A DNA stretch of 64,000 nucleotides. It comes from Polychytrium aggregatum (lineage: Eukaryota > Chytridiomycota > Chytridiomycetes > Polychytriales). Below, piece by piece: positions 14,807-59,249 of this stretch (position 1 is its first letter; every line of letters begins with the position of its first letter). The stretch is from contig NW_026516260.1 in the NCBI RefSeq assembly GCF_025602895.1, forward strand, positions 230,484-294,483, written 5' to 3'. The translations under genes were made by a program, and so were the position numbers. A model generated the notes under the pieces. The model did no database searches. It saw only the letters and a program-made list of their open reading frames with translations, and was not told where the DNA came from.

Positions 14807-17472
14807 TCAGGCTTGGTCTGCGGACGACACCGCAAATTCCATCCTCTGCCTTCGAAGGCGGTTCACCAAGACCATGCCCATGGCCGTGGCAGGGGTCAGA
14901 ACACCTCCACGGAAGGGCGCAAACGGTCCCACGACTGCCGGGTCGGCCGTCTCGAGCTTGCCCCGGTCGAGGGCGAGGCAGAGGGCAGATTCGGCAACCA
15001 TCTTGCCAGTTTCGCCGTATCCTGTCGCAGCAACGAGGGTTCAGATTCGGCTGCAGCGTTGGTCGAGCGCAGGAGATTGGCCAACCCAAGCCACAGCGCC
15101 CACCATCAACAGAGAGACAGAGGGAGGTGCGACGCCACGATGCAAGTCCACGGTGCCTCACCTGGATCAAACTCGGTCTTGATGGATCCGCGAGCCTTGA
15201 CGGGCTTGGCGGTCTGGTGCCAGAGAGTCGGTACCTCGTCAGCGCGACTGCCTCATCATTTGCAGTATCAACCTCCCCCAGCACATTCCAATCATGCAAT
15301 GCCTTGTCCAAACCAGGACAAGTCGTTTGGTCACACCAGCAACCTGCTAATCCCCACGGGCGCTGGTTTATACAGTCACAACCTGGGGCGCTGTCTCTTA
15401 CCTCGTCCGTTATGCCCTCGCCAAGGAGCTCGATATGGCAGTATCCCTTCTCGACCTGCTCCTCCGTTGGCCCGGCTCCGCTTGGAAACTGCCTCTGCAC
15501 CAACGTTCGCAAGGGCGGAATCAAAAACAAAAGCGCCGCCCCAAACTTGAAGACAAACGACAGGATGAAGGCCGCGATGACGTTTCCGGAGAGCGGCGCC
15601 ACCATCATTTCCTGATACATAACGTTGTTTCCATACGACGCCTGGGCAGCCTGGTCAATGTGGCGCTTTGCAAAGAGTCCGATCGATCGAAGGACAATCG
15701 GGATATTGGTGCCCTCCATAAAGTAGTAGCTACACCAAGCCTTGAGAGCAGGGACGTATTCGACAAAGGTGGATTTGGATTTTGGCGCGATCGACTCGGG
15801 CAAATCATCTTGGATCAGGATCCTGGGATCGAGCAGCTCGCGAAGCTCCTTGATGGGCTTGGAGAACATGTTGCACACCGAGGCGATGGTTCCTCCGGAA
15901 ACACCGCCTTTGGCCACCTTGTTGACCAGCTGGATCGATGTGGTGGAGGCTTTGTGGGCGGTGCGAAGGTGGTCGGCGATCCTAATGACGAGGCGAGGAG
16001 GGGCAATTCCGACAGCTGCGAGTGAGTCCACAGAGCATACCAAGCGATGCTGGCAGAACATTTCATTTGGCTCACGAGCCGTCGACCTGAACTGCGGTAC
16101 ACTCTCCGACACCGATTCACGGTCTCACATCAGCGCACCCAGATCGGAGGGGATCGAGTCGAAGCCACACTGACTGACGATCTTGATGCCGGCCTCTACG
16201 GCCTGCTGATGGTGCAGGTCTTTGACCTTTTTGACAAAGTCTGTCTCGCCGGTCGAGTCGACATAATCAGTCTTCATTCGGATGCACGACTCCACTGTAG
16301 AATGCAGTGGTGGTAGATGGGGAGCGATCGAGTCCAACGGTGAGTATGTACCACTTGCTCAGACTGCCGACCTCAGCGGCAAGCAGAGATGGGCTGCCTG
16401 GCAAACAGTGCTGCGGGCAGCATATGCATTATGGCAACGTACCAAGCGGAAAGCCATAGATTGCAAAAGGCCCTGCAGGGAGTTAGCGGACGGAAACGGA
16501 TCAGCCAAATGCAGCATATGTCTTGCGATGCTGTGGTTGGAGGGTGATGCCATTGTCGACCTTGGCGATGCAATTGTCGACCTTGACGATCCAACTCACC
16601 AACAGTCGATGCGACCACCCGAGTTTGGCCAACCATGGCATCCAGACTGGCAGAGTCACCCGAATCAGCGATGATGATCGGCAGATTCTGGCATCATTCC
16701 CATGAGCAAGAGCGCCAAAAATACATAAAAGCAAGCTGTCAGCGACATATCCAATAGGCGTTCGAGCAGCAAGACCCGTGTGTGCTTGAAGAGCTGGCTT
16801 TGGGTGGCTACCTCGACCTTGGTTCCAGCCCAGGAGATGAGCTTGTTTCGGACCTGAATGAGCTTCGACTCGCTTCTGCCGGCGATGGCCCATTTCAGTC
16901 CCTTTAGTTGTCATTGGGTGGAGGAGGGGGGCAGCATCAGCACAGATGACGATGGAAACTGCTGGTGGCGATCAAATAGTTGATTTGGGCATAATCCACC
17001 CCAGCGAGCGCATGCTGAATCGATGTGTCTGTGGTGGTGTTCAGGACCCAAAAAATGCAATGGGAATGTGCACTGACCGCGGGGCCGTTGAGGGCAAGAT
17101 GCTTGGCGACATACTGGCCGGTGAAGCCAGTGGCACCCCTGAGATGCAAGGGGTAGGGTGAATTGTAGTTTCCTTGGATCGCAAGGAAGCCATGGGCGGC
17201 ATTCCAGCGATCGGAGGGCAAGCCTCAGGCGATACGATGTGACCCAGTGCAATTGCAATGCAGTCCGATGCGGCGAGAGCATGGTGCGCATACCAAACTG
17301 ATGCAGGGAAATGTCCGTCGTTTGGAGATCATGCGAACCGTATCGGAGCAGGTGGGATCAATGGACGCGATCAACAAAGTACTCCTCGATCTGCAGCGAC
17401 GATGGCCACAGCACAGGGCGGGCACTCACGGATGACATCGAAGGGTCGTTCGTTTCGTGCGATCGGCGGCAT
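14807..17472 (-). CDS. Saccharopine dehydrogenase-like oxidoreductase (SCCPDH family), with a 4-nt microexon
   Basis: NAD(P)-dependent Rossmann protein of the SCCPDH/trans-acting enoyl reductase-like family; its substrate is not known. The start is ATG 17472. Exon 1 (17430-17472, ending RPFDVI plus one base), a 4-nt exon 17294-17297 (TTTG between CAG and GTATGC) and exon 3 (17079-17140) splice to DVILWGATGFTGQYVAKHLA. That is the family's N-terminal dinucleotide-binding motif, and without the microexon the frame breaks. Later blocks are LKWAIAGRSESKLIQVR, DSGDSASLDAMV, RVVASTVGPFAIYG, TDYVDSTGETDFV and GFDSIPSDLGA. Hydrophobic segments follow (VIAAFILSFVFKFGAALLFL), then TGYGETGKMVAESALCLA and a C-terminus ending at 14807. 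The length and the internal membrane-associated helix fit the eukaryotic family. Confidence 0.9.
17294..17297 (-). other. 4-nt microexon of the SCCPDH-like gene
   Basis: On the minus strand the sequence reads ...catCAG|TTTG|GTATGC. Inclusion converts ATC C + TTTG + G GGT into codons I-L-W-G and restores the conserved DVxLWGATGFTG motif. Skipping leaves the phases of exons 1 and 3 incompatible. Confidence 0.75.
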
Positions 17473-17844
17473 GGTGGGAGCAGGCGAGTAGGCAAGCAGG
17501 CGAGCAGGATGAGCGAGAGTGGGGCGGATGAGGCGGTCAAATATCCAGGGCAATCAGGGAAAACTCGTGCGCCTGACAAATCGCACTATCAATTTTTTCC
17601 GGCCCCCTGGCGGCTGCTCATCTCGGTCACCTGAAAGTCACGTTGTATGTGGAGCAGCAATAGTTGGAATCCGGCCATGGTCGGTTGACGGCATTTGGTA
17701 TCACCTTGAGCCGATTGACGGTGGTGGTGGGCAATTGGTGTGGAGGAATGACCAATTGTATCATTGTTGGAAGCTCCACTCCGATTGCGGACAAGAACCA
17801 CCACCGTCTGAATCTCTCTGGTTGGAAACCTAGTCAAGCGTGGC
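17473..17844. other. Spacer upstream of the oxidoreductase; left edge of transposon-derived sequence not located
   Basis: No gene is recognised. I looked for the transposase-side TIR of the Fanzor element here and found no convincing copy, so the left end of that element appears deleted or eroded. Confidence 0.4.
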
Positions 17845-17948
17845 TGTGTGTCAGCGAGATGACATGATCGTTTGACTATCAGGCAAGACTCACCTTGACA
17901 AGATGTCTTCCCACGACTGATTGAGCGAGCGATGCGTTTCTGGATCTG
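17845..17948 (+). pseudogene. 3' relic of a DD34E Tc1/IS630-like transposase
   Basis: GATGTCTTCCCACG at 17897 begins a stretch reading DVFPRLIERAMRFW then a near-immediate stop (TGA 17946). This matches the C-terminus of the intact transposase encoded at 57726-58781. Upstream to about 17845, nucleotide similarity continues with small indels and stops. Everything 5' of this is lost. It ends 112 bp before the Fanzor ATG; the equivalent gap in the complete element is 130 bp. Confidence 0.8.
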
Positions 17949-18059
17949 AATCAAGGACGCCACTGCGCAGTATCTCTGCCAGCCCAAAATGCGCTGGTTT
18001 TGAGGAGATTCTTTCTTCCCCAAGGGCAGAACCAGCCATCGTCGCTATTTTCTCGCCAG

Positions 18060-20690
18060 ATGGCTCCCAAGCGAAAGACACCCCCCGATCCCGACCCGGG
18101 ATCACCCAATGACTCTCCTGTGGCCAAGAAACCCGTCATCAAATCGTGTCGTGCCTGTGGCCTGACCAACCATGTTAGGCCCTTCACCAAGAAGTGCACA
18201 GCCAGAATCGACAGCAGCCCTGCCTCTGGCTCTGCCTCGGTCGCTGAAATGGTCAGCCAAGCACCCAAGGTCCCTGTATGTGCCACGTGCGGGGAAGAGG
18301 GTCATGCCAGAAGCAACAGTTCATTGTGTACCAAGAAGAACCCACTCTGGAGCTCTACCTTGCCTGACTGTGGCCCAAACGAGCAAGTCAAGGCCGACTA
18401 CTCCACCGTCAAGTGCACCCTCGATGCCATCATCAAGAACGACACCTTGCACGACAAGATCGAGGAGACTGTCCGAGCCATGACTCAAGTGCAGTACGAA
18501 GCATCTCGTCTCCTGGAGCTGCATCTCAGGCGGTGCTTGGACGAGGGCATCACCCTCCCCATCGTGTCGTCGAGTGAACCCGCGTTTGTTCGAAAATGCT
18601 TCAATATGGTGCAGACAGGAACAGTGAGTGCCAAGAAAGGCACGACTCAAGAAGACAGGCACATCCTCGACACATATGAGATGTACCGAAGTACATGGAG
18701 TGGATCGTGTATCCTGCCTCCAGTGTCCCTCCCAAAGGGCACTGGGTCACAGGTCCTTGGTTTGGCTGTCAAGACCTATGCAGTCAACTGTGAGACCCAC
18801 GTTCTCGATCGATACTGGTCTCTCCTCCGTCGATTCTGCAATTTGGTCCTGGTTGCTCCCAAGGGTGTCAAACGTCATACACACGTCGATGAGTGCATGA
18901 AGCTGATGGAGAATCCCCTCTCCAAGACACTCCTCGGTGATCTGAGAAAATCCTTCGCCCACCATGCCGACCAGTTGTATGAGTTTCGGTACGAAAGCCA
19001 CCAGGACCTGTACAAAGTCGTACCAATTCTGGCCAGTGAAGTCTCTCGCCTGACCCACCTGAAGGAGGCCCTCTTCATGGTGGTCTTTCAGAAGATGATC
19101 ATTCCCAGGCTCGCGAGGGATACCGATGTTCTGAAAGGAGAGCGTGGACGACTGAACGAGGAGATGTGTCAACCCATCCACCACATCGGGGCTGACAAGC
19201 ACAACGCACTCCAGACCCAGCACGAGGAGGTGTGCAAGCAGATCACCATCAACACGAAGCGGATCAAGCGCCTCGCCGACCGGCTTGCCCAGACCAAGAA
19301 GCGACACAATGTCCCTCGAGCACAGTGCACCTTGGTCCCGCTCTGCGATGCCAGAGCCAAGTACATCAAGCTCGACACCACAGCATTGTGGGAGATCCTT
19401 GGATACCAGACTGGCACTGGGCTCAAGTGGGACGACCTGAAGACCAAGGTCAACGACACCACAAAGCAAGAGACCTTCTGGCAGACCAACTTCAAGCTGG
19501 ATCCGAGACTCTTTGGTGTCAGGAAAGAGGGGAAGCAGCTCTTTGGTTGCGAGATCACCACCGATGGGGTCGGGTGCTCGATCACCACACTCAGATACAA
19601 GATTCTGAAGCAGGACCCTGATGCCAAACCAAAATCCACGGACAAGACGAGCGCACTCACTCCCGAGCAGAGGATCCAGACCAGGGTCGGTCCCATTGAC
19701 GACTCTCGGACCACATGGATTGGGATCGACCCTGGAGTAGGATCGATCTTCACCGTTGTCATTCGAGCACCCGGTCAACCATCCATCCAGGAGCGAGACG
19801 GTGTCAAGGTGACCAAGGCACAGCGTGCCAACGAGAAGATCGTGTCGTTCTCCAACAAGGAGTACCAGCATCGAACTGGCACCACCCAAGCGACCAAGTG
19901 GATCCAGAGCACCCACAAGATCCTTGGTCTGCAGCAATGGATGAGCACCACACCGAGCCCCAAGATCCCTGGAGTGCCTTCTTTCTTACGATATATTCGC
20001 CATGTGTTCACTGGAGACATGCTGGACAAACAGCTGTACTTCAGCCTGACCCGGCGACGGCGATTCAAGCGACTCGATCTCCACGGCAAGCGACAGCGCA
20101 CCGTCCACGAGATGTGCAAGCAGGTCATTGACCAGGCACTGAAGGAGACCGAGGTGGTGATTGCCTTTGGGAATGCATCCTGGAAACAGGGGAAGGGATA
20201 CGCATCCAGTCCCAGAAGACTCAGGTTTGCCAAGTACTTTGAGCAATTCCACCACCACCAGAGAGGCCCACCAGACCGATCCGTCTCCAAGATCCATGTG
20301 TGCTCGGTGAACGAGTTCAACACATCCCAGGTGTGCTCACATTGTCGGGATGCCAAGCGACTCGAGTCACTCGAGTATCTTGATATCGAGAAACCACACT
20401 TTGTACGGAGCTGTGCAAGCTGCCATACGCTGTGGGATCGAGACGTCAATGCAGCCAGGAATATGATCTCGGTATGCCAGTCGATCATCGCCCATGGAGA
20501 TCGACCGGGTGTATTCAAGACTGTGCTCCCGAGACCAACAAAACAAAGCGATTGCCGACGAAGACAGGAGTGCAATGCCACGGCCTGCCCGCTGGGCCTA
20601 CAAGTCAGTCAGCGGGTTCAGACATCTGATGCCCGAAATGGGATCTGTCCCGTTTCTTTCTGGATAGACTGTAAGCATCTTGTTCCTTGA
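18060..20690 (+). CDS. Fanzor (eukaryotic TnpB-like RNA-guided nuclease), full length
   Basis: Single-exon gene of 876 residues. ATG 18060 (MAPKRK) is chosen because the second Fanzor here starts MPPKRK. In order: a basic NLS-like PKRK/AKK N-terminus; two zinc-knuckle-like motifs (residues about 30-46 and 74-90, CATCGEEGHARSNSSLC); a long helical wedge/REC-like region; and the RuvC-like nuclease. RuvC-I is WIGIDPGVGSIF with D about 557. The RuvC-II region is KETEVVIAFGNASW with E about 696 and 698. A zinc ribbon CSHC...CASC follows (about 759-786), then RuvC-III WDRDVNAARNM with D about 795. Fanzors are known to be guided by RNAs encoded at the element's 3' end and to cut DNA. The acidic residue before AFGNASW rather than a canonical TnpB glutamate fits the shifted RuvC-II Glu known in Fanzors. 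The last ~50 residues read through the TIR into flanking DNA, so the ancestral stop was probably earlier. Confidence 0.95.
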   Translation: MAPKRKTPPDPDPGSPNDSPVAKKPVIKSCRACGLTNHVRPFTKKCTARIDSSPASGSASVAEMVSQAPKVPVCATCGEEGHARSNSSLCTKKNPLWSSTLPDCGPNEQVKADYSTVKCTLDAIIKNDTLHDKIEETVRAMTQVQYEASRLLELHLRRCLDEGITLPIVSSSEPAFVRKCFNMVQTGTVSAKKGTTQEDRHILDTYEMYRSTWSGSCILPPVSLPKGTGSQVLGLAVKTYAVNCETHVLDRYWSLLRRFCNLVLVAPKGVKRHTHVDECMKLMENPLSKTLLGDLRKSFAHHADQLYEFRYESHQDLYKVVPILASEVSRLTHLKEALFMVVFQKMIIPRLARDTDVLKGERGRLNEEMCQPIHHIGADKHNALQTQHEEVCKQITINTKRIKRLADRLAQTKKRHNVPRAQCTLVPLCDARAKYIKLDTTALWEILGYQTGTGLKWDDLKTKVNDTTKQETFWQTNFKLDPRLFGVRKEGKQLFGCEITTDGVGCSITTLRYKILKQDPDAKPKSTDKTSALTPEQRIQTRVGPIDDSRTTWIGIDPGVGSIFTVVIRAPGQPSIQERDGVKVTKAQRANEKIVSFSNKEYQHRTGTTQATKWIQSTHKILGLQQWMSTTPSPKIPGVPSFLRYIRHVFTGDMLDKQLYFSLTRRRRFKRLDLHGKRQRTVHEMCKQVIDQALKETEVVIAFGNASWKQGKGYASSPRRLRFAKYFEQFHHHQRGPPDRSVSKIHVCSVNEFNTSQVCSHCRDAKRLESLEYLDIEKPHFVRSCASCHTLWDRDVNAARNMISVCQSIIAHGDRPGVFKTVLPRPTKQSDCRRRQECNATACPLGLQVSQRVQTSDARNGICPVSFWIDCKHLVP
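20588..20662 (+). ncRNA. Candidate omega/fRNA scaffold at the 3' end of the Fanzor element
   Basis: A perfect 7-bp stem, CCCGCTG (20588-20594) with CAGCGGG (20610-20616), is followed by the palindrome TCAGA-CA-TCTGA (20618-20629), 17 nt before the TIR. The MITE derivative keeps an analogous hairpin, CTTCAG-AGAC-CTGAAG at 22326-22341, 13 nt from its TIR. In TnpB/Fanzor systems the guide RNA overlaps the 3' end of the gene and ends at the element boundary, so position and structure fit. The 5' limit and the expression are unknown. Confidence 0.45.
20647..20662 (+). repeat. Terminal inverted repeat, Fanzor side, first element
   Basis: GTCCCGTTTCTTTCTG is the reverse complement of CAGAAAGAAACGGGAC, which starts the MITE at 22297, and near-identical to the end at 55500. 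Confidence 0.85.
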
Positions 20691-20761
20691 GTATTTCGAC
20701 AGTGGATGCCGGGTCGCCCATATTCTGGGCAGTCCACTTCGGGGTTGCCATCCCTCTTGGG

Positions 20762-20937
20762 ATGGTCGATGGGAGGTGTTTGACTCCCTTGTGCAAAGTG
20801 TGTGTGTGTGACGGCGAGAGGCTTCTCGCCTTCCCTCGGGGGTCTCTCGCCAGAGACTGCTCTTCTCGCCGACCGAGGTGGCTCCGAGAGCGCGTTTTTT
20901 CGTTCTCGCTCATTTTTTTAACAAGAAATTTTTTCAT
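20762..20937 (+). repeat. Dispersed structured repeat, copy 2
   Basis: It is identical to 110-227 over the 118-bp hairpin/T-run block and colinear with the left edge of the window before that, with fewer GTGCAAAGT units. It starts 100 bp after the Fanzor element's TIR and ends 125 bp before the ATG of the next gene, so it lies in that gene's presumed promoter or 5' UTR. Confidence 0.8.
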
Positions 20938-21061
20938 TGTGTCGCTGCTTCGATCACCGCTTCGATCCTTCCGGGGTCGCCCGTGCTGGATCTGGATTTG
21001 CCGTTCTCCCTCGGCACCAAGTTTGCATCCGGCCCGCCCGGCTCGGCATCCCTCCGTCGAC

Positions 21062-21958
21062 ATGGCCCAGACGCCTGAATCCATCTATGCCCTTTGGGAG
21101 CAAGTCTGTCAGCAGGCGTTCAGCCTGAACACCCCGTACCTCGAGCTGGCGATTTCCCTGGCCGAGCAAGCCCACTCGTCGCCGTCTGGAACCCGTATCG
21201 ATCTGGACGGCTTGCACAGCTTGCCCCGCGAGCAGCAATCCCAGGCGCAAACGCTTCTAGCTCAGCTCGGCATCGACCCGCAGTCTGGAGTCGCTCTCCA
21301 GACTCTTGATCCCGGGCGGCTGGGCCGCATCAAGAACTTGGCCCGGGAAGCCTTCCACCGCACTCACCAGGATCACCTCTCGGCGGAGCTCGAGCGACTC
21401 CTCCAGGAGAACCGCAGCCCAAACGATGCCAAAGTTCTCTCGGAGCGTGACCTGCATGCAGTCTCGCAGTTCGTTTCCAAGTACCAGAAGCATGTCGGCG
21501 CTGTGCCGTTTCTGCTGGGGCTGGCTCAGCTCGTCGATTTGACCCGGCAGTCTCCCCGGCAAAAGGTTGTCTGGGTTCTGGACGATGCCGTCTTTACCCA
21601 GAGCGCTGGCGATGGGTTCATGGAAAGCGCCGTCCTCCTGCTCTGCCAAACACTTGGTATGCAGTTTCAGCAGCCCTCATCGGCCGACCAAGTCCGGATC
21701 CAGGTGGGCGAGCCGACTGCAGACCTGTCGGCCGACGGAGGGGTGCGAGCCTGGTTCCTGGTATCGTCGCTGTCGCAGCTCGATCTGGTCAAGCTCTCTA
21801 TCGCCACCCACCTCAGATCCTCCGCCCGGGCAACCGGGACGATTCGCCGGGAGGCTGCTGGATCCAAGCCTGCACCCGAGCCTCCAGGTTCACTGCTCGA
21901 CTGGATTATGTATATCTGGAACAGCCTGCGGCTGCTACTCATTCGGGCACTGTTCTAG
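21062..21958 (+). CDS. Unknown protein with C-terminal hydrophobic anchor
   Basis: An uninterrupted 298-residue frame with strong codon-position GC bias; I do not recognise the family. It is largely helical (LYALWEQ-type start, LAISLAEQ, LGRIKNLAREAFHRTHQ) with a middle beta-like segment, KVVWVLDDAVF, and an Ala/Pro-rich linker. The last 20 residues (LLDWIMYIWNSLRLLLIRAL) are hydrophobic with an interior Arg, suggesting a tail anchor or an amphipathic membrane helix. No signal peptide is visible. It is transcribed away from the structured repeat at 20762-20937 and is followed by Fanzor debris. It could be a lineage-specific host gene; nothing links it to the transposon. Confidence 0.7.
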   Translation: MAQTPESIYALWEQVCQQAFSLNTPYLELAISLAEQAHSSPSGTRIDLDGLHSLPREQQSQAQTLLAQLGIDPQSGVALQTLDPGRLGRIKNLAREAFHRTHQDHLSAELERLLQENRSPNDAKVLSERDLHAVSQFVSKYQKHVGAVPFLLGLAQLVDLTRQSPRQKVVWVLDDAVFTQSAGDGFMESAVLLLCQTLGMQFQQPSSADQVRIQVGEPTADLSADGGVRAWFLVSSLSQLDLVKLSIATHLRSSARATGTIRREAAGSKPAPEPPGSLLDWIMYIWNSLRLLLIRALF

Positions 21959-22151: not shown

Positions 22152-22296
22152 TGTTGGCGACCCACCACCACTATAGGAGCTCGAACGCCGAGAAAGCACA
22201 GCGAGCAACCTGTTGGCCCGAAATCTGGATGTCGAGAAATTACGCCGGCGCGGCGCTGTCTAGAGAGTCCGATGTATATTGCATCCGCAGTCAATA

Positions 22297-22586
22297 CAGA
22301 AAGAAACGGGACGGTCACTTTCTGACTTCAGAGACCTGAAGCTCCATACTAACTCGATATCAAGATACTCGGCTTTCTCGAGTCGCTTGGCTTCCCGGCA
22401 CTGTGGGCACACCTGGAGATCGAGTCGCTTGAATCGCCGTCGCCGGGTCAGGCTGAAGTACAGCTGTTTGTCCATCATGTCTCCATCGAACACATGGCGA
22501 ATGTATTGCAGGAAGGAACGGTCATGGCCAGCGCGCATTGGACTTGCGCGACAACATAAAGGATCAGTGGGAAAAGGATCGTTTTG
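22297..22586 (-). mobile_element. MITE-like internally deleted derivative of the transposase-Fanzor transposon (290 bp)
   Basis: It begins TA|CAGAAAGAAACGGGAC at 22297, and the right side is an eroded TIR ending at 22586 followed by TA. On the minus strand it reads: the transposase 5' flank (GCGCGCTGGCCATGACC, as upstream of the gene at 58781), directly joined to Fanzor codons (FLQYIRHVFDGDMMDKQLYF, SLTRRRRFKRLDLQ). These jump to the zinc-ribbon segment (VCPQCREAKRLEKAEYLDIE), then the 3' hairpin and the TIR. The transposase body and most of Fanzor are deleted. It is non-autonomous and could be mobilised in trans. Confidence 0.85.
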
Positions 22587-54640: not shown

Positions 54641-55499
54641 AGGGAAGCATCGATCTCTCTCTCCTGCCCCAATCTCGAAGGCCCATCGTCCGTTCTCTCC
54701 GAACAAGGGGACTCCAAACAGCAAGCTTCGCCGCCATTCCCACCCTGTTCCTTTGATTCTGATTCTTTGCCGAGATTGAGGTGCTCCATGCGAGACTCAT
54801 CCCCCCCCCTTCGAGATGTCTGCGACTGCTCTGCCTCACACACCGGGCGTTTCTCGGTGTGAATTTTGTTAGATTTGAGATATGTCGAACCTGCTTCTTC
54901 CTCCTTCCCATCACCCCTTCGATTCACACATTCTCTTTGTCTGGACCCATTTTTGTATTCTGTACTTTCAAAAGTGGGCAGGGGGAGCCCGTGGTGTGGC
55001 TCGAGAAGGGGGAGGGACCAGTGGTGATGCTGTATCATCGAGTAGCAACCGCTCTCCAAGTGCCGTGATGGCTGATTTCCGCCGTGTCGATCCCTATTGC
55101 GCCCCATCTTGCCAAGAAGATCCCACCACCCTGTTCTACTCTCTGCCGCATCCCTGCACCACGTTGATCACCCCGCGCCCGTTCTATTGTAGTCATCGCT
55201 TGTTTCTATAGATCATCAATGCGCTATATAGTGCATCAGGGAGGAGTATGTACGTCGCTCAGCCTTCCCAAATACAGTGCAATCCAAATACAGTACAATC
55301 CAAATCCAAATCCAAATCCAAATCCAAATCCAAATCCAAATCCAAATCCAAATCCAAATCCAAATCCAAATCCAAATGGGTTCCCTGGTCGTCCCGTCGC
55401 CAGCCGATCTCTTGACCTGTGGCCACCATCCCCGGATCTCGCTCAGGAGCTGGAAGGTCACCGTTATTGAAATCGACGCAGAGTATCCTACACTTTATT
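54641..55499. other. Spacer between the SAM-LRR gene and the transposon
   Basis: There is no gene; it contains a hexanucleotide array near the transposon end. Confidence 0.4.
55302..55376 (+). repeat. Hexanucleotide array (CCAAAT)n
   Basis: About twelve units of AATCCA/CCAAAT, preceded by two ACAGTRCAATCCAAAT units (from about 55272). The array ends 124 bp before the transposon TIR. Confidence 0.95.
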
Positions 55500-55516
55500 C
55501 AGAAAAAAACGGGACA
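55500..55516. repeat. Terminal inverted repeat, Fanzor side
   Basis: CAGAAAAAAACGGGACA; same core as 22297-22312 and, inverted, 20647-20662. Confidence 0.88.
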
Positions 55517-55552
55517 ATATAGCCGTTTCCATGAACATGTAGTATGTGCTGT

Positions 55553-55565
55553 GCTTGCGTCAAGC
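55553..55565 (-). other. Hairpin inside the Fanzor-side TIR
   Basis: GCTTG-CGT-CAAGC forms a perfect 5-bp stem between the Fanzor stop codon and the TIR. Its position is similar to the hairpins at 20618-20629 and 22326-22341, although its sequence differs. It is a possible part of a guide-RNA scaffold. Confidence 0.3.
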
Positions 55566-55588
55566 AAAGCCACAAGAAATAAAACAGA

Positions 55589-57595
55589 TCACTTTGGCAG
55601 CCTCCGAGTGAAGACCACCGGTCGCTCTCCGGTCTCCACAATCGACTTGCACATCCTGTCGACGGCCACTTGGCGCCTCTTGTGGCCCGTGAAGCGATGG
55701 TGACGGGCCTTCTTGCCAAGGTGGAAGTCGAGCTGCACTCGCAGCTCCGGTCGCAGGACATGGGTGAGATGGACTTTGAAAGCCTCCGAGGACGACACCT
55801 TGGGCGAGGGGGTGGTCGACATCCAGGTCTCGATGCTGAGTCGATACTTCATGGTGTTGTGCCAGTCGGTGTTGGACGTATGGCCACACATTTGCTGATA
55901 GTGACCATTGGAGAACGAGACCACCTCGTCTTGGTGGCCCGGTGCTTGGATGACCGCCGTGAAGATGGAGCCGACTCCAGGATCGATGCCAATCCAAGTG
56001 GTGCGGTTGGGGTTTGGGTCACCGATGTGGGCCTGGATGCGCTACTCGGCAGTCGGAGGAGGCTCGGAGGTCTCGGTGCGATCGGTTCGAGGCAGAAACT
56101 TGACGAGACCGATGGTGCATCCAATGGCATCGGTGCTGATCTCGTAGTTGAACAGTTTGTGATTGATATCCCGGTCACGGAAGAGGGAACTACGCAGCTT
56201 GAAGCAACTGCGCCAGAGACGATCCTGGTTGTTGACACCGTCCTCACCTTCTTCCTTGAGCATGTCCCTGGTGAGTCCAAGACGATGTTCGGTGTCAAGG
56301 AGATCCCAGAGAGTGGCCGTGTCAATCTTGATGTACTTGGCCTTCGCAGTGCACAGAGGGACCATCGTGCACACGGCCGGAGGAGTGTCGAGAGCGAGCT
56401 GCTTCAGTGCCCACTTGATCCTGGATGCCAGCTTGTTGATCTTGGCCTTGGTGGTGCCGAGCTCAGACTTGGCCGTGGTGAACCTCTTGTCGTCGGAGGG
56501 AATGCCTCGGGCAGTGAGGCTGTCCAGCTTGGCCTGGCGCTGCAGCTCGGTGACTCGGAGGGCGGGCATGTCACAGTCGATCCACTTGTGGACATTGTCG
56601 ACCATCTTGTCTCGGGCGAGGATTCTCACATGGTGTGAGAGGCGATGGAGGGCCCGGAAGTGGTCCTGGTCGTTGCTGTACCGAAACTCGTCCAGGATGT
56701 GGCCAAAGCCCGGGTAGAGGAACTTGATATCGGCCTTGGGTGGAGTCTGCCCTGGTTTCTCGAAGAGCTCGAGACAGGCCTCGATGGCTTCGTGCTTGTG
56801 CTTGTTGGCAGGGAAGACAGCAGCACAAAAGCGACGAAGAAGTCTCCAGTAGGCCAGGTCGAGGTGGGTGGTGCAGTTGGTAGCATAGGCGTTGACAGCC
56901 AGGGTGAGAAGCTGACTGTGAGCACCATCAGGCAGACGAGGGGCCGGAGGCAGGTCTGCGTGCCGAGTGGTCTGGTAGTCGCGAAAGGAAGCGACCAGAT
57001 GCTCGTTGTATTTCTTGGTGTCCCCGGTCGGCGAGAGGGCATCGGCCTCGACAATCGTGAAGCATTGGCGGATGAATGCAGGTGTGGTCTTGGAGATGAC
57101 GGGGATGGGAATATCCTGCTCGATGCACCGGAGGATGTGCAGGTTGAGCAGCCTGGATGCCTCGAACTGGATCTGGGTCATGGCCTCGACGGTGGCCTGG
57201 ATCTTGTCGCGGAGAGCGGGATTGAGACAACAGCCATCCATCGTCTGCTTGAAGCAGCTGAACTGAGGGGCGGATGACCTTCCATCCACGAGTGGGACGA
57301 CAGAACTCTTGAGGGGCCGGTATTTTGGACACTTGCTGGTGTTGCAACGTTCGTGATCGGTGCCATCGCACTTGGGACATCGCTTGCCGGTACTCGAGGA
57401 AGTAGATGGACCAGGCTCGGTGGGATCGACATCCATTGGATCTGCAGAAGCAGTGGTGAGCGACGGAGCAACAGACGAACAAGCATGCGTGGGATCAGAA
57501 TACGAACCAGAGACAGGCTCCGACTGTGACTTGGCTTTCTTGGGCCTGGGTGGCCGAGGCTGGCCATCACCGGCACCCTTGCGCTTCGGAGGCAT
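55589..57595 (-). pseudogene. Fanzor pseudogene: one amber codon and an in-frame deletion of the catalytic C-terminal half
   Basis: From ATG 57595 (MPPKRKGAGDG) the frame is open to a TAG at about 56042-56044. It then continues in the same frame with RIQAHIGD, TTWIGIDPGVGSIF (RuvC-I Asp present) and WMSTTPSPK, to a TGA at 55589. The TAG falls exactly where the full Fanzor has CAG (EQRIQ versus E-stop-RIQ). A single zinc-knuckle-like motif CPKCDGTDHERCNTSKC is near residue 80. Downstream, RRQVAVDRMCK is fused directly to SIVETGERPVVFTRRLPK. This skips about 120 residues that in the full Fanzor hold RuvC-II, the CxxC...CxxC ribbon and the RuvC-III DRDVNAARN. It is therefore nuclease-dead even if the stop were read through. 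Confidence 0.92.
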
Positions 57596-57725
57596 GGGGA
57601 CAGAGGATGCTGGATGCCTGCCAGTGGTACTGGTCAGAGCAGAGACTTTTTTTTATCGTACAATAGCGCGATGATCAGATCAAGGCGAGATGATGGAAGA
57701 AAGCAGCAGGACGAAGGTGTGGCAT

Positions 57726-58781
57726 TTATACCCGAGAGCAGGAGCCCGTCTTTGCGGGCTGGTTGGGGAAGTGACCCTGTTCAAAAATCGCCGAGAGGTT
57801 CAAGCCAGGGATGTGAACGCGAAAATGGCGGCTTGATTGGAGGGAACTCAAACCCCAGAAGCGCATCGCTCGCTCAATCAGCCGTGGGAAGACATCTGGA
57901 AGCACCCTCCGAACGGCAGACTCAAACAATATGACCATCCCGGCCTTGAACCCCTCGGACACATTCAGCGCTGCCACCTTCCTGTACTGATGCTTCACAA
58001 CCCCAAAGAAGTTCTCGATGGGATTGAAGTCGGGCGAGGCAGGTGGGGTGAAGATCACTGACCATCCTCGGCGCTCGATGCAGTCCAGGACAGCCATTGT
58101 CTTGTGCATGCTGACATTGTCCATCACAATCACAGAGTCGTCTGGGAAGGTCGCTCGCTCAAAGAACTCGACCATCGAGTGTGTCTTGAATGATGTGGGG
58201 ATGTACATGCGATGCAGCACACCAGAGTGGTTGATGGCAAATGCAGCCGAGACAGACTTGTGTTTCATGTGATTGCGCTGACGGAGTGGGACGCCCTTCG
58301 GTGAGTATCCGTAAAGAGAGAAAATGGATCTCCTGATCCCTGTCTCGTCGACAAAGACGAATCGTCGTGGGTCGATGGAGCGGACCTGGTCCCTGAACTG
58401 TGCCACTCGCTCATCCAGTCGCTTGGACTTGTAGAGGTGTGTGGCTCTCTTGTGTGAGAGACCTGCTCGGTGGATGGCAGTGTGGCAGAGTGAGAGTGAT
58501 ACTTTCCTCTGGAGGATGGACTCGAGCTTGCATCGCAGCACAGGACCAGTCTGGAACGGGTCCTGTTCAATCAGGGTGCGAATGACTGGACATGCCTGCT
58601 CGAAGAAAGTGGATCTGCGAGCTGGGACCCGGGATGGGTCATCCAGCTTGCATCCTCGGTGCCATCGATGGATGGTGCTCTTGGATACACTGAATATGGA
58701 GGCGACCTTACGCAGGCTATGGATGAGGGCGTAGCATCGCAATGCGGCGGTGCGAAAGTCGGATGTGTGGCGAATGGTCAT
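57726..58781 (-). CDS. DD34E Tc1/mariner-IS630-like transposase
   Basis: Intact single-exon gene of 351 residues starting MTIRHTSDF at 58781. An N-terminal helix-turn-helix (LRKVASIFSVSKSTIHRWHR, about 23-42) should bind the TIRs. The catalytic core has FVDETGIRR (first Asp), VIVMDNVSMHK (second Asp) and SPDFNPIENFFGVVKHQ (Glu). Exactly 34 residues separate the second Asp from the Glu, the Tc1-like DD34E spacing. Tc1/IS630 enzymes cut and paste elements at TA dinucleotides. The gene precedes Fanzor on the same strand inside matched TIRs. A relic of the same gene's 3' end precedes the first Fanzor at 17845-17948. No stop or frameshift is seen, so activity is possible. Confidence 0.93.
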   Translation of the reverse strand: MTIRHTSDFRTAALRCYALIHSLRKVASIFSVSKSTIHRWHRGCKLDDPSRVPARRSTFFEQACPVIRTLIEQDPFQTGPVLRCKLESILQRKVSLSLCHTAIHRAGLSHKRATHLYKSKRLDERVAQFRDQVRSIDPRRFVFVDETGIRRSIFSLYGYSPKGVPLRQRNHMKHKSVSAAFAINHSGVLHRMYIPTSFKTHSMVEFFERATFPDDSVIVMDNVSMHKTMAVLDCIERRGWSVIFTPPASPDFNPIENFFGVVKHQYRKVAALNVSEGFKAGMVILFESAVRRVLPDVFPRLIERAMRFWGLSSLQSSRHFRVHIPGLNLSAIFEQGHFPNQPAKTGSCSRV

Positions 58782-58839
58782 GGCCAGCGCGCGATAACAT
58801 TGGGTAACAAAATATTCGATGAATGGTCAAAAACCCGGG

Positions 58840-58856
58840 TGTCCCGTTTTTTATTG
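58840..58856. repeat. Terminal inverted repeat, transposase side
   Basis: TGTCCCGTTTTTTATTG, inverted relative to 55500-55516 with two mismatches; preceded by ACCCGGG on the inner side. Confidence 0.8.
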
Positions 58857-58857
58857 G

Positions 58858-59249
58858 ATTGCCTGTAAACTACGCTGCAAAAGCGTCAATTGGAAACGAT
58901 CCCCTGTCCTTGAGTGCGCTTTCTGTATCACTCAAACGAGAAAGTATGTGCTGGCCCTGGGGTGCTCGGCTGCTTCGCTCTCGCTCTCCTGATGCAGTCT
59001 CGATATGATGCGATATAGATCGATTTGATTCATAAATAAGTGGACAACACCGCCGCTGCCTCCTCCTCCAGCGGGGACTCTGCAGCTGTGGATGTGATGA
59101 AACCATGATGAGCTGCTCTGCATGGCTCCAAGACTATGACATGACTTGATGACAAAACTGCAGCATATGCTTGCTGACAGCACAGAAAAGAACCCGAACA
59201 GGCTCTCAGCACTGAGTATACAGAACTTGACCGCTTGTTGAAGAAGGTC
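58858..59249. other. Spacer downstream of the mannosyltransferase gene
   Basis: No recognisable gene; it probably carries the 3' UTR of the Mnn1-like gene. Confidence 0.4.

Follow-up and report, generated by a model that had tools for sequence, protein, structure and literature searches.

The window analysed here is a 64,000-nucleotide stretch of the chytrid fungus Polychytrium aggregatum (contig NW_026516260.1, forward-strand positions 230,484 to 294,483; contig C373 of our genome searches), and this study concerns a Fanzor1 gene within it and the 3,358-bp mobile unit (17584-20941) that carries the gene. Positions are those of the window, and all genome searches were made in the P. aggregatum genome (64.7 Mb). 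The locus comprises the following features.

17581..17583, no strand: left target-site duplication TCG, present on both sides of the element
17584..17900, plus strand: CACTA 5' arm, starting with the left terminus CACTATCAATTTTTTCCGG, bounded by the homology edge among copies
17901..17953, plus strand: C-terminal relic of a DD34E-type (DDE_3) transposase, reading QDVFPRLIERAMRFWI and then a stop
18028..18032, no strand: site of an insert found in 13 of 40 scored copies, without the insert in the window copy
18060..20690, plus strand: Fanzor1 open reading frame (ORF), 876 aa, free of internal stops; ratio of nonsynonymous to synonymous divergence (dN/dS) 0.32 over 15 copies
18147..18197, plus strand: zinc-knuckle-like motif 1, residues 30-46
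18279..18329, plus strand: zinc-knuckle-like motif 2, residues 74-90
19728..19730, plus strand: RuvC-I Asp, D557 of DPG, aligned with SpuFz1 D383
20313..20315, plus strand: predicted catalytic Glu, E752 in NEFNTSQVC, aligned with SpuFz1 E541
20334..20423, plus strand: zinc ribbon CSHC...CASC, within a PF07282 match at residues 744-802
20442..20444, plus strand: RuvC-III Asp, D795, aligned with SpuFz1 D606
20585..20671, plus strand: candidate omega-RNA scaffold, a putative structured 3' end that stops at the right end of the former Tc1-type host
20646..20671, minus strand: relic right inverted repeat of the former host, 2 mismatches to CAGTCAAACCAGAAAGAAACGGGACA
20672..20673, no strand: TA, the target dinucleotide of the former host, unchanged in all 15 copies compared
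20674..20941, plus strand: CACTA 3' arm up to and including the right terminus, defined by copy comparison
20942..20944, no strand: right target-site duplication TCG, pairing with the left TCG

The ORF opens with MAPKRK, resembling a nuclear localisation signal (NLS), and its two N-terminal knuckles both fit C-x2-C-x4-H-x7-C. CSHC lies at residue 759, CASC at residue 785 and WDRDVNAARN around D795, and the final residues are translated through the inner repeat (the old inverted repeat) and into the CACTA arm. Features that an earlier note had picked out in this DNA (an 876-residue single ORF, an NLS-like start, two zinc knuckles, DPG, CSHC...CASC and DRDVNAARN) are present in 18060-20690. A 63-bp stretch considered as an intron was rejected, the comparison of four longer copies revealing in-frame coding sequence between GCACCC repeats.

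Pfam profiles recognized only the zinc-ribbon part of the window protein above the cut-off (Cas12f1-like_TNB, E 1.1e-9). Used as a single-sequence query against the PDB, the protein matched no Fanzor, neither SpuFz1 nor GtFz1, and a second homology search using its alignment returned no match. A four-sequence profile built from the window protein and three distant homologues matched SpuFz1 (8gkh) at 1.1e-25 and the Guillardia Fanzor1 (GtFz1, 9cer) at 2.2e-7. The profile alignment pairs D557, E752 and D795 with chain positions 777, 935 and 1000, at a constant offset of 394 to the SpuFz1 numbering, in which D383, E541 and D606 are given as the catalytic residues in the available text of PMC11423790. 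These three residues and the ribbon cysteines C759, C762, C785 and C788 are invariant in the alignment with the three homologues. E752 occupies the position of the rearranged Fanzor Glu signature ExxxxxxCxxC set out in the accessible part of PMC10711439; the DPG-to-E spacing is 192 residues, compared to 120-160 in the search pattern given there, and the intra-ribbon spacing is 22 residues, compared to 12-18. An AlphaFold2 model, built from four sequences only, reached a mean pLDDT (predicted local distance difference test) of 35, too low for the model to be of use. The reading of the protein as a full-length Fanzor is upheld through profile homology to SpuFz1/GtFz1 and through an aligned triad whose Asp/Glu/Asp positions match those of SpuFz1; the acidic residue before AFGNASW, formerly proposed as catalytic, varies among the three homologues, and E752 is invariant instead. 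Judged by its sequence, the window ORF encodes an intact, full-length Fanzor1 that retains the catalytic triad, and the protein may be an active nuclease.

When the window was compared with 20 fetched copies, homology broke off sharply at 17584 (CACTATCAATTTTTTCC) and 20941, the right edge reading ...CATAGTG in the family and CATTGTG in the window copy. The mobile unit is therefore delimited by CACTAT...ATAGTG ends, with ATTGTG at the right end of the window copy; read inwards, the termini start CACTATC or CACTATG in the family, with CACAATG at the right end in the window copy. Ends of CACTA type together with 3-bp duplications characterise the CACTA/EnSpm superfamily. Because only the best candidates were scored in the genome searches (40 of 1262 for window-region DNA, 52 of 1683 for the Fanzor protein, 148 of 387 for the transposase, 40 of 160 in another search, and the first 100 of 384 places for one further set of sites), copy numbers are lower bounds. 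The 5' arm (17584-17895) occurs at at least 40 places (best 40 of 179 candidates scored), and 64 elements could be paired from the first 100 of 128 left ends and the first 100 of 120 right ends listed: 4 of 278-295 bp, 26 of 1.55-1.64 kb, 18 of 3.33-3.43 kb, 13 of 3.70-3.88 kb and 3 of other sizes. The three 1.58-kb elements that were read are deleted for about 18085-19880, and only the ends are left in the one element of the smallest class that was compared (L036). Exact 3-bp duplications flank 36 of the 48 unique sites drawn from the 64 end pairs (L016, which has no left end, excluded), compared to a mean of 4.7 and a maximum of 14 under shuffled pairing; the same sites yield one 4-bp and no 5-bp duplication. 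The earlier note had placed the gene in a Tc1/IS630-like remnant at 17845..20662, a span that misses both element boundaries (17584 and 20941), and this assignment of the present host gives way to an inserted unit with CACTAT ends, a TCG/TCG duplication and a high-copy CACTA-type family. Many copies do exist in the genome, which the note had proposed to survey for copies at TA-flanked sites, and 3-bp duplications rather than TA are the rule at their flanks.

The genome also encodes transposases of the CACTA superfamily (PF02992; 29 places matched, 28 above the cut-off). One PF02992-bearing CACTA/EnSpm element (C113:315756-321445; 5,690 bp, ACG/ACG duplication, empty site on another contig) resembles the window family in its 3-bp duplication and in its terminus CACTATGAAAAAA, which matches the family right terminus at 13/13 positions and that of the window copy at 12/13; unlike the window family, it has a transposase, no Fanzor and no oriented target motif in 11 sites. 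Such a transposase is thus present in the genome, which is no proof that it moves the Fanzor family.

Copy L010 (C135:254411-263217) lies in a segmental duplication of the window region and is 98.3% identical to it; the Fanzor of L010 stops at codon 98, and that of the window copy is open. L029 and L030 are of fold-back type: both ends carry the left terminus, and the right arm is missing. L033 is a lone left terminus of the family just upstream of a host gene, presumably one for an inorganic pyrophosphatase; a role as autonomous partner was considered for it and rejected.

Between the CACTA arms, the only Tc1/IS630 features of 17584-20941 are a right repeat, one TA and the 53-bp relic, with no DDE_3 transposase. 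The relic is identical at 47/53 positions to the end of the DDE_3 frame of a sister element on C63 (L145), with a score of 35 against a maximum of 14 in 300 shuffles, and at 41/43 positions to the transposase of the other Fanzor element within the window. The inner-repeat match at 20646-20671 was found in none of 100 shuffles. The sister group accounts for 9 of the 52 scored protein matches, with 80-85% residue identity over about residues 60-862, and the remaining matches resemble the window copy. The upstream transposase of one sister, tested by profile, is DDE_3 (PF13358, E 4.7e-24), of the type VDETG...VMDN...SPDFNPIENFF, which we take to be DD34E. Among five sister upstream regions read, those on C63, C24 and C2 hold an unbroken transposase frame, the frame on C68 has a gap inside it and C5 retains the last part only. 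The right side was read in six sisters; in five it closes with TGTCCCGTTTCTTTCTGGTTTGACTG (the CAGTCAAACCAGAAAGAAACGGGACA repeat), followed by TA and a variable flank, C2 being the exception. In the transposase search, full-length matches adjoin Fanzor matches at C63 (two), C24, C2 and C157, and a contig-edge match lies beside a Fanzor at C326. Furthermore, genome matches place an A-type Fanzor directly behind an open DDE_3 transposase frame at C364:451933-455463, its DNA 91% identical to the window gene over most of its length and 75% near the start; this element, known from genome matches only, is probably close to the donor. The relic upstream (17901-17953) and the repeat downstream (20646-20671, adjoining TA) match the sisters, so that the DD34E transposase relic and the terminal inverted repeat proposed in the earlier note are real; both are the scar of a previous host.

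Two further Fanzor sequences lie in the window. An inverted scrap of the same family (22288-22518) comprises an inner-repeat match (22288-22313, 3 mismatches) and a gene piece (22414-22518). A second Fanzor element, type C, occupies 55491-58865 on the minus strand, with a 351-aa DDE transposase ORF (57726-58781) followed by a frameshifted Fanzor that is 33% identical to the first and, compared to other copies, is without about 355 bp at the expected catalytic Glu and zinc ribbon. This element has TA-flanked repeats with 17/24 matches and belongs to a family of at least 35 copies (best 35 of 1084 candidates); its ends, missed by a repeat finder, were bounded by genome matches and a scan for TA-flanked repeats.

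Divergence among copies indicates that the Fanzor protein is under purifying selection. Over 15 copies at different sites (5 of 20 omitted as segmental duplicates, L016 omitted too, stop and gap codons skipped), dN/dS was 0.32 overall, 0.28 for the RuvC and ribbon parts, 0.46 for residues 1-110 and 0.67 for the tail; in each of the 105 non-independent pairs dN was lower than dS, and divergence at codon positions 1, 2 and 3 was 6.2, 5.6 and 11.3%. The 3' arm is 97-99% identical outside a TG repeat (95.6%), compared to 88.7% at third codon positions. The Fanzor tail before the inner repeat is variable in length and frame and 88% identical, the inner repeat is 98% identical, and the transposase relic, which is function-free as far as known, is 98.1% identical among copies.

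The insert at 18028..18032 was read in L027, where 366 bp with TG...CA ends lie between two copies of the 5-bp site. An intron was rejected on account of these ends and the duplication, and we read the insert as a putative solo long terminal repeat (LTR) in the Fanzor leader, which might act as a promoter. Matches split there (query 1-188 and 184-2818) in 13 of the 40 scored copies; with the insert at one and the same site, the element probably kept moving with the solo LTR in place. In addition, five annotated P. aggregatum proteins (P0002-P0006; F-box, kinase-like, male sterility protein and others) contain pieces like the window Fanzor, which suggests gene-model fusions or exonised fragments.

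According to the available text of PMC10432273, the omega-RNA of SpuFz1 spans the right repeat and extends 14-15 nt into the flank. By analogy, the window scaffold should end at the old right repeat. The hairpin fold before this repeat gave z values of -2.1 in the window (7 of 200 shuffles as good), -3.8 in L019 (1 of 200) and -2.6 in a sister; in the inner scaffold 93.0% of cells pair, compared to 93.3% reached by shuffles. An Rfam scan of 17400-21200 returned no match. In the 15 CACTA copies, the bases that follow the inner repeat and TA belong to the arm and occur in at least two similar versions, so that a guide taken from there would be nearly fixed and its target would be a CACTA element without a Fanzor. 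Judged by size, no such empty element was present among the 64 paired elements, and L036 is without the putative target site.

The insertion sites of the family carry an oriented motif. After removal of near-duplicate sites (48 to 46 sites, 36 to 34 with duplication), the left-flank bases at the 34 unique duplicated sites read G/A, A/G, C/A, T (27/34), C/A, N, with no counterpart on the right. The six left positions hold 2.21 bits and the six right positions 0.43, and the difference of 1.78 was not reached in any of 5000 orientation shuffles (largest 1.70). RRMTMN occurs in 15/34 left flanks and 0/34 mirrored right flanks, in 17/46 left flanks when sites without duplication are counted, at 1.4% of window positions, and at 0/11 sites of the transposase-bearing CACTA element; as RRMTMN was chosen from the same sites, the orientation shuffle is the real test. 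Fanzor-bearing sites carry it in 11/22 cases and Fanzor-less sites in 6/24 (p 0.13). Regarding the TA at the insertion proposed before, a TA is indeed present and comes from the ancestral Tc1-type host, and the sites at which the CACTA unit inserted show G-A-C/A-T-C/A instead, on the left side only.

Taken together, these data make it very probable that the locus belongs to a family of non-autonomous CACTA/EnSpm-type transposons, of which it is one copy, and that its sole gene is a Fanzor1 from a Tc1/IS630-type element: the CACTA ends, the scar, the right repeat and the transposase-bearing sisters point to a Tc1/IS630 Fanzor unit captured by a CACTA element and then amplified. In the proposed sequence of events, a Tc1/IS630-type Fanzor element would have inserted at a TA within a CACTA element, the left part of the Fanzor element would have been lost, and the composite would then have been moved in trans by a CACTA transposase. 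The Fanzor would act as an RNA-guided nuclease, its scaffold RNA still being the 20585-20671 stretch that ends at the old right repeat; the guide would then be the adjacent CACTA-arm sequence and the natural target a Fanzor-less CACTA element. Trans-mobilisation and RNA guidance are less certain than the capture itself. Several results weigh against this interpretation. Twelve of the 48 unique sites are without an exact duplication; none of the 64 paired elements, none of them longer than 3.9 kb, contains a transposase between family-type ends, so that the family is non-autonomous at best; the 5,690-bp CACTA element matches the family left terminus at only 8/13 positions and shares no 12-mer with the Fanzor family beyond the short terminus. 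No double compensatory changes were found in the inner scaffold among the copies aligned and shuffles pair equally well, so the inner RNA fold is a candidate and no proof, and taking the guide from the arm leaves the oriented left-flank motif unexplained. The relic is as conserved as the arms, which renders low divergence weak evidence of function. Most fetched copies are also broken, an ORF of at least 854 codons being present in 7/20, and 35/52 scored protein matches have an internal stop or start after residue 40 in the main match, as expected if the whole family were decaying and the window ORF were intact by luck; this we consider improbable given the codon-position divergences, the dN/dS of 0.32 and the 17/52 scored matches that are stop-free from residue 5 or earlier to at least residue 834. 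The view that the locus is a static, Tc1/IS630-like remnant in which the Fanzor is a passenger would account for the relic and the inner repeat, which are real, and is hardly tenable in the face of CACTA ends and many copies that indicate mobility as another unit; the 3-bp duplications contradict it.

The oriented motif calls for a separate explanation, as a cut-and-paste transposon would be expected to pick targets without orientation; it is either a target-adjacent motif (TAM) or a transposase preference. We lean towards an insertion preference of the CACTA transposase, which would handle its unlike termini differently with the Fanzor uninvolved, as the motif is common to Fanzor-less derivatives and the inner left and right termini are unlike (CACTATCAATTTT versus CACTATGAAAAAA). 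Against such a preference, the first duplicated base is T at 4/11 sites of the transposase-bearing element versus 27/34 in the family (p 0.02), and the preceding base is C/A at 8/11 versus 33/34 (p 0.04), a comparison with one element, perhaps using another transposase, that has an exact duplication at 6/11 sites only. Alternatively, the boundary of the Fanzor RNA may have moved to the CACTA right end, with a scaffold at 20818-20941, the genomic flank as guide and G-A-C/A-T-C/A as TAM; the nuclease would cut the empty site after excision and repair would restore the copy, so that copies at such motifs would persist. The left-only motif with its 1.78-bit difference and its 15/34 against 0/34 occurrences speaks for this shift, together with the 0/11 count at the transposase-bearing element, the 97-99% identity of the 3' arm, a fold z of -2.96 for 20691-20941, and a precedent in SpuFz1, for which a conserved CA left of a TA-duplicating element and a CATA motif are described in the accessible parts of PMC10432273 and PMC3627910. 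It is nevertheless doubtful, given that the motif also occurs in Fanzor-less derivatives (6/24 versus 11/22), that TCTCGC, four times in the 3' arm, might mark transposase-binding sites, that 268 bp separate the native scaffold from the CACTA end downstream, that RRMTMN was derived from the same sites and that the relic shows the same degree of conservation as the arm. Somewhat less likely still is the full scenario in which the Fanzor switched superfamily and then shifted its guide boundary to the new right end, protecting the CACTA element from loss at empty donor sites.

Under the capture interpretation, the closest known system is SPu-1/SpuFz1 of Spizellomyces punctatus, which, in the available texts of PMC10432273, PMC3627910 and PMC11423790, is likewise a chytrid single-ORF Fanzor1 element without a transposase, with Fanzor-less ghost copies and the same triad. 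Unlike the window element, with its CACTAT ends, 3-bp duplications, N-terminal zinc knuckles and scar of a former host, SPu-1 is described there as about 2.1 kb long with 30-33-bp repeats and putative TA duplications. Tc1/mariner elements such as PUl-1 and PGv-1 (PMC3627910, in the part accessible) combine a transposase, a Fanzor1 and a TA target, like the sister and type-C elements; in the window copy, by contrast, both the transposase and the left repeat are gone and the host is a CACTA element. As Fanzor1 hosts, the same text lists Tc/mariner, Helitron, IS4-type, Sola2, MuDR and unclassified elements, with no occurrence of CACTA or EnSpm in the portion available; the accessible part of PMC10711439 mentions hAT, Mariner, Crypton and Helitron in a list said to be 'not limited to' them, and PMC12633428 treats Fanzor and EnSpm as separate repeats. 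No CACTA-borne Fanzor was found in the literature searched, which is no proof of absence, many subscription papers being beyond reach. As far as the literature searched shows, a CACTA host bearing the scar of a former host is new for a Fanzor, and the protein itself adds a new member to Fanzor1.

In the available text of PMC10432273, the biological role of Fanzors is stated to be unknown, and no transposase was found flanked by SPu-1 repeats. The element described here bears on two questions, namely what Fanzors do for the elements and organisms that carry them and by which route they move from one transposon superfamily to another. With donor-type elements, recipient and scar all in one sequenced genome, both the proposed move and what it entails for the guide RNA would be directly testable.

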